IMG/VR virus record: IMGVR_UViG_3300025736_000023
Location: 1-64,000 of that record
Source: a virus
Strand: one strand, 5' to 3'
DNA length: 64,000 bases
Shown: positions 4,849 through 57,264 of the stretch, piece after piece
Layout: the number at the start of each line of letters is the position of its first letter
Numbering within the stretch: position 1 is the stretch's first letter
Notes under the pieces: generated by a model
Seen by the model: only the letters and a program-made list of their open reading frames with translations
Database searches by the model: none
Told to the model about the DNA's origin: nothing
Translations under genes and position numbers: made by a program

Positions 4849-7416
4849 ATGATTAACGATTGTGGTTTGCTCCTAGCGATCTTTGCTGACCTGGCTGCAT
4901 CTGAGTGGATAGAATTGTGTCTAGTTACCCAGGAAAGAAAAGGCCGCCAGTTATTCTTTAGTGATACTTTGCATCTGTTAGAGGCTGCCGAAGCTATTGG
5001 CGATAAAGAACACTGTTTTTTCGGTGTTGCGCCTAGAAAAAACCGTTCTGGCGTAGCCGAGAGCGTTGATCGCATCGGTGTTATTTGGGCAGACTTGGAT
5101 GCTAAAGATTTCAATGATGATAAAGCTGCGGCATTGGCTGCTGCAGACCTGTTGGTGCTGCCGCCATCATACATCATAGACTCGGGGCATGGCTATCATG
5201 CGTACTGGCTATTACAGGAGGCGGTAGCCGCAGAGGACGGTTGCGAGGTAGTTAGACTTGTAGGAACCTTACTTGGTGGGGGGCACGTAGGAGACCCTGC
5301 TAGGGTCATGCGGATACCCGGAACCTTCAACATTAAGGTTGAACCGTATGTCCCATGTACCGTAGTACGCAACAGACCGGAGCTGCGTTATAAATTAGAT
5401 GATATCATTGCAGCAACTCAGATATCTGATCCTACTCGCCGCAGCATTTTAACTGGAAAACCAGGGCCTAAAGCTAGGGATAAAACCCGCTCTGGTGTAG
5501 ACTGGCAAGCAGGCTCAGAACTCACCGATCTGCAAATGTCCGAATATGCTATGAAAGCGATTTGGGCGGAGCACATCATTGGAGAGAAATCAAGAGAGGA
5601 TAGTGGAAGATACTTAGATATCACTCTAAAAAAGCTGCAAACAAAGCAGCGGACTGCAAAAGCAGCTTATGATCCTAGCAGTTGCTTCTCTATGGCCGAT
5701 GATGCCTATTTTGTAGTGGGAATAGGTAAGAGGGGCAAACATGTAGTTTCTACCTTTACCTTTGAACCTAAGCGGTTGCTAGAGGGACCTGACGAGGACA
5801 TTTTTCTAGGGGACATTCACGCAGATGGTCGCATTTGGGAGGGGATACAGCTTCCTAAAAGTGCATTTCTCAGAGTGGATTCTTTAATGAAGAAGCTCGG
5901 GAAAGCCTCCTGGCAATGGTTAGGGACTGACACCGAGGTCAGATTTTTACTACCATTCATTATGAAACAATGGAAAGAGTTAGGAAGCCCTAGAGCAATA
6001 GCAACCTCTGTACTTGGAAGGCATGAAGATTATTGGGTAGCATCAGAGTACACGCTGAGTGCTACTGAAACGATGGATCGATACTCAGCTCCTATAGTCT
6101 ACTCTCCCACAGGCAGAGCAGGGCCAGCGCTAGATTACCCTCCAGGGTGTTCATTGCCTCTCTTAACAGAAATTCATGCTAAAATTTCCAAGATCAACGC
6201 TCCAGGAATTGTTTGGCCTATCCTAGGTTGGTTCATGGCTACCCCCTATAAACCCTTACTTAATGATGCCCGAATTCTAGTACCTCATTTGATACTGTAT
6301 GGTACCACAGGGGCCGGTAAAACGGCTACGCTAGAGTCCGCGTTCATGCCGCTATTGGGGTATCGCATACCAGCACACTCAGAAGATTGTAGTACCACGC
6401 CTTTTGTACTACTGTCTCTTCTATCTTCAACCAATGCAGTGCCGATAAGTTTAGCAGAGTTCCGACGGTCTACACTAGGAGAAGTATCTTGGCGCGCTCT
6501 GCTTCGCACTCTACTGCTGGCCTATGACGTGGGGCATGATTCACGGGGGCGACCTAATCAGACCACGGTAGACTACCCTTTACATGCGCCATTGGTACTA
6601 AGCGGAGAAGACGTGATATCTGACCCAGCTGTGCAACGGCGATCGATCGTCATTGGAATGACCCCTCGGGACATCGAAATGGGCACAGGGGCGTATGAAG
6701 CGTTTATGGATTTGATCTGCTTACCGCTATCACAGTTTGCTGCTCCCTATATACAGTACACTCTAACAGTATCGCAACAAGAGGCAACAGCTCAATGGAA
6801 CTCTGCTCTTCAGGAAGTAGCTTCTGTGATAGATTTTCCATTGACAGAACGAATACGCCGAAACCTGGCTACCGTCTTATTTGGAGCCCGTTCATATGAA
6901 ACTTTTATGCGGCTCCAAGGTGTTGTGCTAGAGGCAACCCCCGCAGAGCACTTCATTGCTCCGTTGGGCGAAGTTCAAGGAGTGTCTATGAAAAGAGGCT
7001 ACGTGTTATTGGATAGCTTCGTTGAGGAAGTTATCAACGAAGCTCAAAAAGCCAGCTCCCAGTTTGTGTACACTCTAGACCTGGAAGGCGTCTTATGGTT
7101 TCACTTAACTACGGCGTTGAAGTGGTGGCGCAAAGATCGGCTGGCTCGTAAGGAACCAGTTCTAGATAGCGCTGCTGTGAAACGCCAGTTGAGAGAGCTT
7201 TCCAAGGATTTGCCTGGGGAGGGACACTATGTTTGGGGGCCTACGAAGAAGGCCATAAGAGGAGGTGGTGGATCGCACAGAATGTATGGGCTACATATAG
7301 CTACCTGTTTTGAATTGGGTTTGGATGTACCAGATTCGCTGGACATTTTCCAGCAAACCATTACTTTCTCTGGGGGCTCAACTAGGATCCCCGGAAAAAT
7401 TGAGGAGGTTTCATGA
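4849..7416 (+). CDS. Primase-helicase (RepB-type AEP primase plus P-loop ATPase)
   Basis: An 855-residue two-domain replication protein. The N-terminal 200 residues carry archaeo-eukaryotic primase features: DLD at residues 82-84 (WADLDAKDF), then SGHGYHAYWLL, then a conserved arginine-rich turn RVMRIPGTFNIK as in RepB-type primases. A linker region follows. The C-terminal half has Walker A GTTGAGKT at 485-492 and a downstream region resembling phage and plasmid superfamily III/DUF927-type helicases. It would lay primers and unwind DNA for the polymerase encoded downstream. The ATG at 4849 is preceded by GGGG. Its stop overlaps the next gene (ATGA). Confidence 0.75.
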   Translation: MINDCGLLLAIFADLAASEWIELCLVTQERKGRQLFFSDTLHLLEAAEAIGDKEHCFFGVAPRKNRSGVAESVDRIGVIWADLDAKDFNDDKAAALAAADLLVLPPSYIIDSGHGYHAYWLLQEAVAAEDGCEVVRLVGTLLGGGHVGDPARVMRIPGTFNIKVEPYVPCTVVRNRPELRYKLDDIIAATQISDPTRRSILTGKPGPKARDKTRSGVDWQAGSELTDLQMSEYAMKAIWAEHIIGEKSREDSGRYLDITLKKLQTKQRTAKAAYDPSSCFSMADDAYFVVGIGKRGKHVVSTFTFEPKRLLEGPDEDIFLGDIHADGRIWEGIQLPKSAFLRVDSLMKKLGKASWQWLGTDTEVRFLLPFIMKQWKELGSPRAIATSVLGRHEDYWVASEYTLSATETMDRYSAPIVYSPTGRAGPALDYPPGCSLPLLTEIHAKISKINAPGIVWPILGWFMATPYKPLLNDARILVPHLILYGTTGAGKTATLESAFMPLLGYRIPAHSEDCSTTPFVLLSLLSSTNAVPISLAEFRRSTLGEVSWRALLRTLLLAYDVGHDSRGRPNQTTVDYPLHAPLVLSGEDVISDPAVQRRSIVIGMTPRDIEMGTGAYEAFMDLICLPLSQFAAPYIQYTLTVSQQEATAQWNSALQEVASVIDFPLTERIRRNLATVLFGARSYETFMRLQGVVLEATPAEHFIAPLGEVQGVSMKRGYVLLDSFVEEVINEAQKASSQFVYTLDLEGVLWFHLTTALKWWRKDRLARKEPVLDSAAVKRQLRELSKDLPGEGHYVWGPTKKAIRGGGGSHRMYGLHIATCFELGLDVPDSLDIFQQTITFSGGSTRIPGKIEEVS

Positions 7417-7856
7417 TTACCGGATTGTTCCCTATAGAGCTCTTAGCCGCCAAAAAGAGTGCAGAGCAACTTCAAGTGGCTTATGAAGAAGTGCTAGAAG
7501 AGGTATCAGAGGCTATCGCGGCTGAAACACGTTTGTTTGATGAGAGTATGCACGCCGGGCGGCAAAACCAATTTGGAGATGTTTCCTATGCACAGAGATG
7601 TTCTAGAGATCTAGCCAGAGCTATGAGTCTATTACATACAGAGAATCCCGAGGCGGATCTTTCAGTTACCGTCACTGTAGGCGATCTAGTTACAAATGCC
7701 TGTAGGTGGTGGGCTTGGCGAAAGGTCCAAGCAGATCAAGCTAATGAGACCCATGTCTATACCAGTTACTCAGAACCGGCCTTGGACAAGGAGCCAGAGC
7801 CAGAGCCAGAAAACAAACCAACAGGTCTCAGATCTCTACTGAAGAGACCGAAATGA
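7413..7856 (+). CDS. Hypothetical protein, 147 aa
   Basis: Starts at ATG 7413, overlapping the primase stop, and itself overlaps the polymerase start at 7853. The product has a helical N-terminal half and a Pro/Glu repeat linker (KEPEPEPENKP) before a basic tail (RSLLKRPK). The acidic-proline linker with a basic end suggests a small adaptor that touches DNA or a replisome partner. No family is recognised. Confidence 0.6.
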   Translation: MITGLFPIELLAAKKSAEQLQVAYEEVLEEVSEAIAAETRLFDESMHAGRQNQFGDVSYAQRCSRDLARAMSLLHTENPEADLSVTVTVGDLVTNACRWWAWRKVQADQANETHVYTSYSEPALDKEPEPEPENKPTGLRSLLKRPK

Positions 7857-10240
7857 AAAAGGACGCTGCACTTTGTGCAACTTGTCCTTTAGGGAACAGG
7901 GGGAGGCACGTGCCTCCCTTTGGTCCTGCAAAGGCTACAATAGCTTTTCTAGGTGAGGCTCCAGGCAACACTGAGGTTCGCGTAGGCAGGCCCTTCGTAG
8001 GAGAGAGTGGAAAGCTCCTTCGTGCCGCTATCTCCGCCTGTGGACGGGTACCATCAGAATTTTACTATACAAATGCCTGTAAGTGTCAGCTATCTAAAGA
8101 CAAGGCCATAGATGATAAGGCACTTGCTATCTGCAGTACCACCTTAAAAGAGGAGTTCCAATCCAGAGGTGTAGAGATCATCGTTGCGATGGGCAACTCT
8201 GCTATGCAAGGCTTGGGCCTTAGCACGCAGGGAATCACAAAGATGCAGGGGCGGCCATTAAAATGGCATGACTTCACAGTTTTCCCAATACTTCACCCAG
8301 CGTCAATTCTCCACCATCCAGATAACTGGGTTGACTTTGCAGACAATCTGGAAGAGGTGCTTAGAGAGGGTGGTCCTAGGCTTGAGCTTGCCCCAGCCTT
8401 TAGCAATTACGCAGTTTTGTCCACTGAGGGGGCAGTACGTTTTCTTACCTGGTTGAGACAGCAAACTTTCGTATACTTTGACATTGAGACTAGCAATCTC
8501 AATATCCTTGATACGACTATCTTGAGCATTGCGTTCACCTGTGGTTCAGACTATGTGGTCGTTCTGCCCAAAGCAGTTCTGGATCACGCGGATGTGCGGG
8601 CAGCATTACGCCGCGCCTGTGCAAATCCATCCCTAAAATGGTGTGGTCACAATGCTCAGTTTGACGTAGCCCGCTTGATCACTCAGTATAGGGCGCATCC
8701 CTACATTTCAGAGGACACTATCTTAGAGCACTTTGTACTAGATGAGCGCCTGGGCACCCACGGTCTAAAGCAACTGGCTATGAAACTTTTGCGGGTACCT
8801 GATTGGGAAGCAGATATCAAGAAGTGGATATCTAAAGAGCATAGCTCGTATGCATTGATTCCCGAGGAAAATCTATGGAGCTACAATGCCAAAGACGTAG
8901 CTTACGGCTATGACCTGCATCAACTCCTACGTCCCCAGGTAGCCTCCGAGGAAGATCTTGAACGGGTATATACAGAGCTGCTCATTCCAGGGACAAATGC
9001 CTTAGTAGATATGTCTGTACGAGGCGTCAAGATAGACATAGATAGGCTAAAGACTACACAGACTGAAGCGGAACAAACAATAGATAGGCTACGAACCGAA
9101 ATGCGGACGCTTGTTGATCTCCCTGAGTTCAATCCTAACTCGCCAAAGCAGGTTGGTCATATCCTGTACGACATATACAAAGCGCCACCATTCTCAAGGT
9201 CCAAATCACTGCCTATCGAGCTGATAGAGCCCGTAGCTGTACCGTATGGACGGAACGATAAAACTACAGCTAAAGATCAAATGGCACGTCTGGCGCAGCC
9301 AATCTACCCTTGCGCGCCGTTTGCTAGTTTAATGCTGAAGTACAAAAAAGCGCATCAATTGGTTAGCACCTATCTCAAGAATCTTCATCCCGAATCTGAT
9401 GGTAGGATACATCCAGGGCTCAAGCTCTTTGGCACAGTTACCGGGCGGCTGTCTGGTAGCAAGCCAAATGTATTGAATCTCACTAGGATCGGGCCGGTTC
9501 GAGGCTTAGTAGTGCCTGAGCCAGGCAACATTCTTCTTACTATTGACTACAAAGCGTCCGAGCTGCGTGTCTTGGCTGCTCTGGCTGGGTCTAAGGGACT
9601 TCTAGAATTGTTTAGAACAGGCGATGATCCACACAACTTTGTAGGAGAAAGCATTTATGGAGACAATTATGATGTTGAGAAACATCGAGTAGGTGTCAAG
9701 GGGATCAATTTTGGTGTCGCTTTTGGCCTAGGGATCCCTGGTATTGCTGCTATGCTAGGCGTTTCCTTCAGTGAAGCTAAAAGGATTCATAGCCTGGTCC
9801 TCAGACTGCTGGGCGTTGACGAATGGATGCAGCAACAGTTTCGGGATGTCAAAACAAGGCAATATGTTACTACACCTACGGGCCGCCGTAGACGCTTTCC
9901 ATTGATACTCTCTACATTATGGTCCAAAATCAAAAAGCAAGCGATCAACATGCCAGTGCAGAGCACAAGTCATGACTTGTGCTTACTAAGTTTGATTGAG
10001 ACCAACAAATGGCTCAAAGACTTTGGAGGCACCATTCTCTTCCCAACGCACGATTCATTGCTACTGGAGTTTCCTATAAAACACGTAGACGCAGTGGCCT
10101 CTCTAGTAACTAAGGAGATGCTGGATGCAGGTACCACTATTCTCGGAGACGATTTCACAGCAGCAGTTGACATCGCAGTCGGGTACTCTTATGACAAGAA
10201 AGATATGGGAAAATACATAATAGGGGGAGGGGCAACATGA
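7853..10240 (+). CDS. Uracil-DNA glycosylase / family A DNA polymerase fusion
   Basis: A 795-residue fusion. Residues about 1-175 are a family 4-type uracil-DNA glycosylase: CATC iron-sulphur cysteines at 8 and 11, GEAPG, GRPFVGESGKLL, further cysteines near 75-95, and a terminal HPASILHHP. Residues about 195-375 are a 3'-5' exonuclease with D210-I-E212, WCGHNAQFD and YNAKDVAYGYD. The rest is a family A polymerase: motif A DYKASELR (D565), motif B KGINFGVAFG, motif C HDSLL (D734). There is no 5' nuclease domain. UDG-like domains fused to phage PolA occur in SPO1-type phages, from memory. The design couples synthesis to uracil removal, or to control of modified bases. Confidence 0.88.
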   Translation: MKKDAALCATCPLGNRGRHVPPFGPAKATIAFLGEAPGNTEVRVGRPFVGESGKLLRAAISACGRVPSEFYYTNACKCQLSKDKAIDDKALAICSTTLKEEFQSRGVEIIVAMGNSAMQGLGLSTQGITKMQGRPLKWHDFTVFPILHPASILHHPDNWVDFADNLEEVLREGGPRLELAPAFSNYAVLSTEGAVRFLTWLRQQTFVYFDIETSNLNILDTTILSIAFTCGSDYVVVLPKAVLDHADVRAALRRACANPSLKWCGHNAQFDVARLITQYRAHPYISEDTILEHFVLDERLGTHGLKQLAMKLLRVPDWEADIKKWISKEHSSYALIPEENLWSYNAKDVAYGYDLHQLLRPQVASEEDLERVYTELLIPGTNALVDMSVRGVKIDIDRLKTTQTEAEQTIDRLRTEMRTLVDLPEFNPNSPKQVGHILYDIYKAPPFSRSKSLPIELIEPVAVPYGRNDKTTAKDQMARLAQPIYPCAPFASLMLKYKKAHQLVSTYLKNLHPESDGRIHPGLKLFGTVTGRLSGSKPNVLNLTRIGPVRGLVVPEPGNILLTIDYKASELRVLAALAGSKGLLELFRTGDDPHNFVGESIYGDNYDVEKHRVGVKGINFGVAFGLGIPGIAAMLGVSFSEAKRIHSLVLRLLGVDEWMQQQFRDVKTRQYVTTPTGRRRRFPLILSTLWSKIKKQAINMPVQSTSHDLCLLSLIETNKWLKDFGGTILFPTHDSLLLEFPIKHVDAVASLVTKEMLDAGTTILGDDFTAAVDIAVGYSYDKKDMGKYIIGGGAT

Positions 10241-13011: not shown

Positions 13012-13105
13012 AGCGGGGAGAGGCAGCCCTCCTCCCCGCTCTCACACGGCAAAGGCGGGGGGACCCTTACCTTGCCGTAAGCAAACAGGGTTTATTAGAC
13101 CCTGT
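13012..13105. terminator. Three-hairpin convergent terminator region
   Basis: Three hairpins lie between the converging operons. The first has a 9-bp stem (13012-13020 with 13032-13040, AGCGGGGAG). The second has a 7-bp stem with extension (13046-13052 with 13072-13078, ACGGCAA). The third has a 7-bp stem (13085-13091 with 13099-13105, ACAGGGT). On the minus strand the third is followed by TTTGCTTA, a T-rich run suited to ending the late operon. The first is GC-rich and follows the SNF2 stop by 6 bases. T-tracts are weak for both directions. Confidence 0.7.
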
Positions 13106-52786: not shown

Positions 52787-53133
52787 GGCGCGGTGGAAGG
52801 AGACGAAATAGTTGCACTAAATGTACACATTGCTAAAAGTTGCTGGAGTTTGTGAGAGAGAGGCCATACCGCTTTCAGCACCCCACCCCAGTTTTTATCA
52901 CTCGCTTACTGTTTATACCTGCTATCACACATACATGCGGACATGATACCATTACCTTGCACTCGACCAGCTCAAAGACATTATGTAAATAGAACAAATG
53001 TAGTAGGCATATATACCTAGACGCCTAGGCCAAAGAGCCTAGAGAAATATAGGTAAAATGGCGGATGTGAAAATGGCCACGCTATGGTAGGATGTGAATG
53101 CAATGATCGATACACTCAAATGAAAGGGGCAAC
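52787..53133. other. Divergent control region, no gene
   Basis: About 350 bp without a credible reading frame, between the late promoter and the first right-arm gene. It is AT-rich in part and contains the operator module at 53004-53096. No CRISPR or tRNA is seen. Confidence 0.7.
53004..53096 (+). promoter_or_regulatory. Operator module A (three palindromic sites)
   Basis: Three near-palindromes start at 53004 (TAGGCATATATACCTA), 53026 (TAGGCCAAAGAGCCTA) and 53050 (TAGGTAAAATGGCGGATG), spaced 22 and 24 bp. The third continues into GCGGATGTG, a string shared with the other modules, and then TATGGTAGGATGTG at 53083-53096. It precedes the gene at 53134 and probably controls the first right-arm unit. 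Confidence 0.7.
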
Positions 53134-54727: not shown

Positions 54728-54979
54728 ATGCAAACGCAACAGACCAAAGTATGCCAAGAGTTTGACGATAACTACAACTTAGTTGTAGACTCATGCGAGG
54801 TTGAACATATCCTGACAAACTACGTGTGTCCTGACGATAGGGACGACTACGGTAGTCTATTTGTCAAAGTCGGGGAGGGTGAATATCTTGAAATATGGGG
54901 GTCAGAACACCAAGTCCCCTGGGTTGACATAACATATTATCGAGTCCAGATAGCAGATGGTAGCGGTAGTCAACAGTAA
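54728..54979 (+). CDS. Hypothetical protein, 83 aa
   Basis: Begins two bases after the previous stop (TAGTCATG). The product has CEVEHILTNYVCPDDRDDYGSLFVKVGEGEYLEIWG...PWVDITYYRV, a pattern I associate with small phage proteins of unknown role. Its stop lies inside the first CAGTAACAAACTG repeat of the origin-like region. Confidence 0.6.
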   Translation: MQTQQTKVCQEFDDNYNLVVDSCEVEHILTNYVCPDDRDDYGSLFVKVGEGEYLEIWGSEHQVPWVDITYYRVQIADGSGSQQ

Positions 54980-55238
54980 CAAACTGCCCGCTATAGAATC
55001 ACTTTTGGAAAGTGTGTCAGCTTGACAAATTATACAGTAAACGACTTGTTATAGAGTCTAGGTCAGCAGTAACAAACTGCACACCTAGTAGGGGCGCTAT
55101 AGTCACATTCCGTTATTCCATTTTTGTTCCCATAATTCTTAAGATTGTTACTATTCTTTATCAAGTTACTTAAGAATACGAAATGGAATAACGGAATCCC
55201 ACTACAGTTTATTACTGTGAGAAAACAGTAACAAACCG
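54974..55238. repeat. CAGTAACAAACTG repeats
   Basis: CAGTAACAAACTG occurs at 54974-54986 and 55067-55079, a variant CAGTAACAAACCG at 55226-55238, and a related palindromic form CAGTTTATTACTG at 55205-55217. Each has CAGT/ACTG arms. They flank the first inverted repeat and may be binding sites for a replication or regulatory protein. Confidence 0.65.
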
Positions 55239-55410
55239 TATATAGTAATAGTAAGAGTATATATATATAATTTTATTCCATTATTCCATTATTCCATTTT
55301 AAGCGTATAGGTACGTAGCAAAACGAGCGTTATGTCAAGTAGATATTTATATATATATGTTTTTCTCTCTCTATACACACAAAATGGAATAATGGAATAA
55401 TGGAATAAAA
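55107..55410. other. Candidate replication origin: iteron inverted repeats
   Basis: First inverted repeat: a 17-bp perfect arm at 55107-55123 pairs with 55181-55197 (core CCGTTATTCCATTT), with an inner 9-bp pair ATTCTTAAG (55135-55143 with 55169-55177). Second: a 30-bp perfect arm at 55271-55300 pairs with 55381-55410; each arm holds three tandem copies of TTATTCCA. The 80-bp loop and the flanks are AT-rich with TATATATA runs. The surrounding 54980-55626 has no credible gene. The set of iterons, inverted repeats and AT-rich DNA fits an origin. A regulatory or recombination site is the alternative. Confidence 0.65.
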
Positions 55411-55626
55411 CTCTATACTGTCGTGTTTAGTACATCCTTTACAGTCTAATCCACTTTAACCATGCGAAACTCGGCGGGTGTAACATGTAAACCCAGCTAT
55501 ACAGTCTATACTATATCCCCACACAAACCACAGTAAAACACACGGGGGCCACAAGGCCCCACTCACGACCCGACATAGAGGGTACTACCAGCGCGGTTTG
55601 CGATGGTAAGCAGAGGAGGTACTGAG

Positions 55627-56701: not shown

Positions 56702-57016
56702 ATGTCAACGCAAGCACTGGAGCTATTTGTCGAGGAAAACTATCTCAACGCAACAGAGGGGTACAGAATGGGCGACAGTGGAGTATACTCTGTAGGGGAT
56801 AGGTCACGCGGGGATGTTTACCGCTATGCGCAGAAAGAGTATGGACGGTGCCAGAGTACAGTGTACCTTGACACAGAGAAGGGTGCCAAAGCGATAGGTT
56901 GGGTATTCCAAAAGCGAGCCAAGTATGAGGACTGTAACGAAACGTTTCTTATGGAAACTTGGGTAACGGTGCACACTGCAAAGCCAACAGTAACAACCGA
57001 GTATCATTATCTGTAA
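56702..57016 (+). CDS. Hypothetical protein, 104 aa
   Basis: Begins two bases after the previous stop (TAGTCATG). The C-terminal region GWVFQKRAKYEDCNETFLMETWVTVH is a pattern I have seen in small phage proteins of unknown role. The rest is soluble and aromatic. Confidence 0.6.
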   Translation: MSTQALELFVEENYLNATEGYRMGDSGVYSVGDRSRGDVYRYAQKEYGRCQSTVYLDTEKGAKAIGWVFQKRAKYEDCNETFLMETWVTVHTAKPTVTTEYHYL

Positions 57017-57030
57017 CACAAAGGGGCAAA

Positions 57031-57264
57031 GTGGTTACAATGATCAAGCGCATAGAGGTTGACGGCGTGTCCTATGAGTTATTCCAGTCAAATGATGGAC
57101 GTTACTGCTTTAGGGGTATGGACGTAGAGTCTGGCGAAAACATTCTAAACCAGATCAAAATCTTTACCAGCTATGAGCAGGGCATAGCATACCATAAAGC
57201 CCTAGTGAGTGAGGCACAGGGCCTAGTATCACAGTTTAGACATGCAAAAAGGAGGACAACATGA
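57031..57264 (+). CDS. Hypothetical protein, 77 aa
   Basis: GTG 57031 is chosen because AAAGGGGCAAA precedes it with the same spacing as other genes of this arm; ATG 57040 is the alternative. The product is a small beta-alpha protein (IEVDGVSYELFQSNDGRYCFRG). Its stop overlaps the next ATG. Confidence 0.55.
   Translation: MVTMIKRIEVDGVSYELFQSNDGRYCFRGMDVESGENILNQIKIFTSYEQGIAYHKALVSEAQGLVSQFRHAKRRTT

Follow-up and report, generated by a model that had tools for sequence, protein, structure and literature searches.

An inverted octamer array as a putative replication origin in a metagenomic tailed phage

The DNA analysed here (the window, 64,000 nucleotides) makes up most of a virus record of 67,693 bases. 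The last 100 bases of the record match its positions 46-145, so that the end repeats part of the start, as expected of a circular or terminally redundant genome. The window encodes a terminase, a primase-helicase, a family A polymerase, a Sak4-like protein and an SNF2-type helicase, and its DNA gave no DNA match to named phages. The features considered below are collected in Table 1.

Table 1. Positions in the window of the putative origin, its repeats and the replication genes discussed in the text.
Feature	Position	Strand	Remarks
Primase-helicase, 855 aa, candidate initiator	4849..7416	+	N-terminal primase match; P-loop at about 485-492
Family A DNA polymerase (the phage's own polymerase)	7853..10240	+	N-terminal uracil-DNA glycosylase domain
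CAGTAACAAACTG copy 1	54974..54986	+	exact
Intergenic region with putative origin	54980..55602		37% GC; 26% in 55241-55420
CAGTAACAAACTG copy 2	55067..55079	+	exact
Pair A left arm	55107..55123	+	17 bp, perfect; one TTATTCCA (55113)
Pair A right arm	55181..55197	-	one inverted TTATTCCA (55184)
CAGTAATAAACTG	55205..55217	-	one mismatch to CAGTAACAAACTG
CAGTAACAAACCG	55226..55238	+	one mismatch to CAGTAACAAACTG
TA run beside pair B left arm	55259..55270		inverted match to 55347-55358
Pair B left arm	55271..55300	+	30 bp, perfect; three tandem TTATTCCA (55273, 55281, 55289)
TA run in pair B spacer	55347..55358		candidate melting element
CTCTCTCT then TATACACACA	55365..55381		just inside pair B right arm
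Pair B right arm	55381..55410	-	three inverted TTATTCCA (55385, 55393, 55401)

Two spaced inverted repeats lie within 55107-55410, with gaps of 57 nt (pair A) and 80 nt (pair B), and the repeat of pair B can be extended to 47 nt at 89%. Each arm of pair A contains the octamer TTATTCCA once, and each arm of pair B contains it three times in tandem. Pair A is bracketed by four CAGTAACAAACTG-type copies, two on either side, and runs of TATATATATA occur beside the left arm of pair B and within its spacer. A GA/CT tract like that beside the right arm of pair B is found again in related elements. The initial annotation had described a gene-free stretch with two perfect inverted repeats (arms of 17 and 30 bp), about eight iteron copies in mirror orientation, further repeats around the first pair and runs in AT-rich DNA. 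All of this is borne out: both repeats could be placed exactly, eight copies of TTATTCCA make up the two pairs, the flanking repeats are the CAGTAACAAACTG copies (two exact, two with one mismatch), the runs are those of TATATATATA, and no ORF of at least 60 aa is listed in 54980-55602.

The element is far above chance. There are nine copies of TTATTCCA in the window against 2.2 expected, a number reached in none of 100 shuffles; eight of them fall in 55113-55408, and the copy at 57079 is the only one elsewhere. Scored as spaced inverted repeats (gap 25-150), pair B reaches 32 and pair A 17, compared to maxima of 10-15 from 25 dinucleotide shuffles of the whole window. The element is present once in the virus record.

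The cumulative GC skew has its minimum at 52973 and its maximum at 13023, both at coding strand switches. The minimum, which had been proposed as a check on the origin, lies 2.1-2.4 kb from the element and would fit an origin near 55 kb; it is confounded by the coding strand, however, and because it coincides with a strand switch it lends weak support.

Two IMG/VR contigs share an identical terminase with the window. One of them runs up to window base 55098, the start of pair A; the end of the other maps to about 53126, so both stop short of the element on the side facing it. A related phage, G001, matches the window at 77% in the terminase and 71% in the primase-helicase. It has two inverted pairs, period-8 repeats and a TA run in the syntenic place, flanked by genes homologous to 54728-54979 and 56702-57016 of the window, but its octamer is TTATTTGA/TTATTTTA/TTATTTCA and not TTATTCCA. 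The two-pair layout is therefore kept while the word drifts, as seen in one independent comparison, that of the window with G001. A scan for spaced inverted repeats ranked the element first in G000, G001, G005, G006 and G007, and found no element of this kind in G011 and G012; weaker versions were read by eye in G008 and G009. Conservation in related phages, the other check proposed, gave a divided answer: the closer relative G001 keeps the element, whereas it is missing from the more distant G011, whose terminase matches at 51% and whose similarity to the primase-helicase is limited to the C-terminal part (28%).

From their gene content, G005, G006, G007 and G009 appear to infect archaea. ORFs resembling clamp, clamp-loader and TFB genes were spotted by eye in the records of these archaeal-type viruses, and a PHROG search of G009 hit a DNA polymerase and an ATP-dependent ligase. 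Although these four carry the same octamer, no homologue of the window primase-helicase was detectable in them. An MCM protein was considered as their initiator and rejected, the only matches being below cut-off and in an ORF read as clamp-loader-like.

The candidate initiator in the window has a PHROG primase match of 3e-12, and a relative has a RepB_primase match below the cut-off. A Pfam search matched it to no family, DUF927 models included, and a PDB profile search gave no relevant match. Alignment with P4 alpha by hhalign gave 0.5% probability, covering the P-loop only, and the AlphaFold model, built from four sequences, was poor (mean pLDDT 36). Since Pfam gave no match, P4 alpha could not be aligned and the model was poor, a DNA-binding C-terminal domain in this protein is a guess. 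A similarity was found to the primase of Halorubrum virus CGphi46 (tblastn 3e-16; hhalign 99.4% over columns 433-699; also 1e-19), and on this similarity the helicase region of CGphi46 is homologous to that of the 855-aa protein. On the circular map of the 67.7-kb record, the gene (4.8-7.4 kb) lies about 17 kb from the element (55.1-55.4 kb).

Among the open-access papers listed by literature searches, none describes this element in such phages in its title or opening abstract lines. The element was compared with known origin systems. Passages of PMC4234260 describe an experimentally shown origin in the Sulfolobus plasmid pRN1, with a 21-nt stem and a 58-nt loop. This 100-bp stem-loop, 3' of the replication gene, is required and remains functional in another position, and its structure is kept though its sequence is not; the same passages propose this form of origin for phage BIP-1 and say that pRN1 is without iteron structure. 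As far as these passages go, the stem-loop origins of pRN1 and of the Bordetella phages BIP-1 and BPP-1 resemble the window element in combining a spaced inverted repeat with a primase-helicase and in keeping structure as sequence drifts, and their stem of about 20 bp and loop of about 60 nt are matched by the arm and gap lengths of pairs A and B. The window differs in having two pairs, with arms of one or three octamers rather than two units spaced by 9 bp, and in the distance to its primase-helicase gene. The pRN1-type protein consists of an archaeo-eukaryotic primase, an SF3 helicase and a winged helix; of such features, the PHROG primase match and a P-loop were seen in the window protein. 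In the sequences themselves, BPP-1 (L332 1108-1211) has 22-bp arms of two tandem 9-mers and a 60-nt gap, downstream of the primase, and the arm of pRN1 (L331 5084-5183) has TGTCCA twice, 9 bp apart.

In passages of PMC6092414 and PMC7581432, the PICI/SaPI origin consists of two iteron sets around an AT-rich region, bound by Rep. Those of PMC7581432 add that SaPI Rep binds the iterons via its C-terminal domain, that the iterons lie 3' of rep, and that SaPIbov1 Rep belongs to the DUF927 group. The window likewise has two sets of short iterons around an AT-rich centre, and G008, a phage whose element contains TTATTCCA, has a gene for a DUF927 helicase with a weak match (0.0015) to a solved pathogenicity-island protein. 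The window differs in being a tailed phage with its own polymerase and not a satellite, in that its site is not immediately 3' of the replication gene, and in that its own protein matches no DUF927 model. The record of phage P4 annotates, in crr 3' of alpha, two 120-bp units of 8-bp repeats arranged ++/-- with one additional + copy. The repeats of about 9 bp spacing, their arrangement and the presence of the unit twice are all reminiscent of the window, but the arms of crr are not perfect inverted repeats, and at profile level alpha (Toprim, D5_N) resembles the window protein only in a P-loop.

CGphi46 offers a parallel in both protein and layout: three tandem 9-mers face three inverted ones (one copy with a mismatch) across 64 nt. 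This intergenic element has the best score in its genome (25) and is without annotation in its record. It shares with the window the 3+3 inverted tandem iterons and the homologous helicase region, and differs in its GC-richer 9-bp iteron, its position directly 3' of the primase gene and its single inverted pair. In an IMG/VR contig (L222), a PriCT_2/DUF3987 gene is likewise followed by an inverted pair, about 80 bp beyond its 3' end. Ten further named primase loci were examined, and in the 2-5 kb around each none was positive in a strict test for tandem plus inverted copies; a comparable layout is absent from eight of the ten. The remaining two, also negative in the strict test, are Loktanella phage pCB2051-A, in which two long inverted pairs lie 3' of the primase, accompanied by GA tracts and a TA run, and HrTV-DL1, with GTAACGG copies in both orientations 3' of the primase. 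For HrTV-DL1, passages of PMC10544981 name the primase-helicase and do not describe a viral origin. No comparable element was seen in Rollin, UAntarctica, Oceanotoga UFV02, RHph_TM3_14A, VA-RY-3, Lana or PMBT3, the region covered stopping short of the ends in RHph_TM3_14A, VA-RY-3 and UAntarctica; VA-RY-3 has a T-rich inverted pair that looks like chance. In Pseudomonas phage Rollin (L246 1-700), tandem TTTGCATAC copies adjoin repeated palindromes of the form AAAAGGTAGTAACTTGCTACCTTTT or nearly so, possibly another origin design.

The replication origin claimed in the initial annotation is the best-supported reading of the element, in view of its syntenic conservation, the layout linked to primase-helicases and the published origins, as described in passages of PMC6092414 and PMC4234260. 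By analogy with these systems, the element is probably an origin of the inverted-iteron (stem-loop) type, working bidirectionally, with the 855-aa primase-helicase assembling on the octamers. The protein would bind the octamers, most likely via its C-terminal domain. Because the tandem copies on one arm point towards those on the other, the protein would form two rings arranged head to head. They would melt the AT-rich spacer, where the primase part would prime, and the family A polymerase of the phage would extend, presumably both ways. The smaller pair A may be a second binding site, comparable to P4 crr with its unit present twice. The origin reading is favoured by the rarity of the element and by the recurrence of the layout next to the primase-helicase genes of other replicons, one of which has a homologous helicase. 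Against it count the distance from the presumed initiator gene, the lack of the element in G011 and of the layout at most of the further named primase loci, the archaeal-type viruses without an initiator homologue, and the unsupported DNA-binding fold in the 855-aa protein. The distant initiator gene and the octamer shared with archaeal-type viruses that have no detectable homologous initiator are what make this case unusual.

The element may instead have a cruciform or regulatory role. It could be a hairpin that controls the early gene run, as a cis-acting RNA or through transcription, with the pairs serving as RNA stems, an attenuator or a terminator. Both pairs do give strong folds whichever strand is taken (z -6.7 to -10.4), and the region has six promoter-like matches against 2.4 in shuffles and three terminator-like matches against 0.4. 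Such folding is nevertheless common to any long inverted repeat, and pairing alone does not need arms that consist of one word in tandem; moreover, the loops are 57-80 nt long, Rfam gave no family at its own cut-off (the best hits were miRNA models, far below theirs), and unrelated replicons have the same layout 3' of primase genes. We therefore regard this explanation as unlikely. Operators and centromere-like sites also have groups of short repeats to the left and right of a spacer, and a repressor, looping factor or partition protein acting on the octamer clusters would fit that likeness and the additional CAGTAAYAAACTG sites either side of pair A. Family scans recognised no partition gene near the site, and there is no second TTATTCCA cluster in the window, since the octamer is otherwise absent apart from the copy at 57079; a role of this kind seems quite improbable. 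A mobile or dispersed palindromic repeat without a role in replication, as suggested by Chitinophaga solisilvae O9, which accounts for 22 of the 41 genome stretches matching the inverted TTATTNNA pattern, with octamer-flanked hairpins in many places, is very improbable here, given that the element occurs once in its record, is syntenic in G001 with an altered word, and has a spacer that is not itself a tight hairpin, unlike those of Chitinophaga. In that bacterium, the hairpins flanked by inverted TTATTTGA-type octamers (L275, L279, L280 and 19 further loci) form a dispersed repeat family.

Most tailed phages known only from metagenomes have unmapped origins, and a sequence rule (tandem 8-9-mers, inverted, 55-115 nt apart) led to putative origins in several viruses, an isolated haloarchaeal virus among them. 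The tandem 9-mers of BPP-1 and the repeated TGTCCA of pRN1, the latter a single six-base repeat, suggest that two published origin classes may be the same. We put forward, tentatively and with some doubt, that the stem-loop (pRN1, BPP-1) and iteron (P4, PICI, SaPI) origins are one type, in which primase-helicases read tandem iterons that are inverted and follow each other in steps of 8-9 bp. This type would occur widely in the tailed viruses of both bacteria and archaea, with a TTATTnnA word family common to otherwise unrelated viruses and with word positions 6-7 changing with the initiator. If so, initiator specificity could be tested by pairing iterons with C-terminal domains, using sister phages with differing octamers.

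The spread of the octamer and the layout was followed in IMG/VR. By our own reading, six of the 54 loci with tandem TTATTCCA are non-coding and have an inverted partner (L009, L017, L028, L029, L034 and L049). The strict test was positive only in L009, L028 and L029, in 1,435,732 bases of other loci that had been preselected for TTATTCCA patterns. The pattern ATTATTCCA-N60-90-TGGAATAAT was tried and set aside: it returned 109 stretches, almost all of them coding DNA that fits the pattern by chance, and among the matches listed the only conspicuous ones were tandem elements found before. Two scans, each for a double inverted TTATTnnA pair, found 4 and 14 loci. Nine from the second scan look real, several of them being the same sequence or record, and include a TTATTACA group adjoining terminase genes; the other five look like AT-rich or coding chance. 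Of 15 spacers, 9 contain a GAGAG/CTCTC tract where 2.06 would be expected; the tract had been noticed before it was tested, and some spacers of the set are near-duplicates or paired entries from one genome. In an 8-kb contig (L049 2140-2225), tandem inverted TTATTCCA-type copies face one or two copies across a short spacer. Inverted TTATTACA pairs, 110 nt apart and with AT-rich spacers, were also seen in a bacterial MAG of an uncultured Prevotellaceae (L285 and L295).
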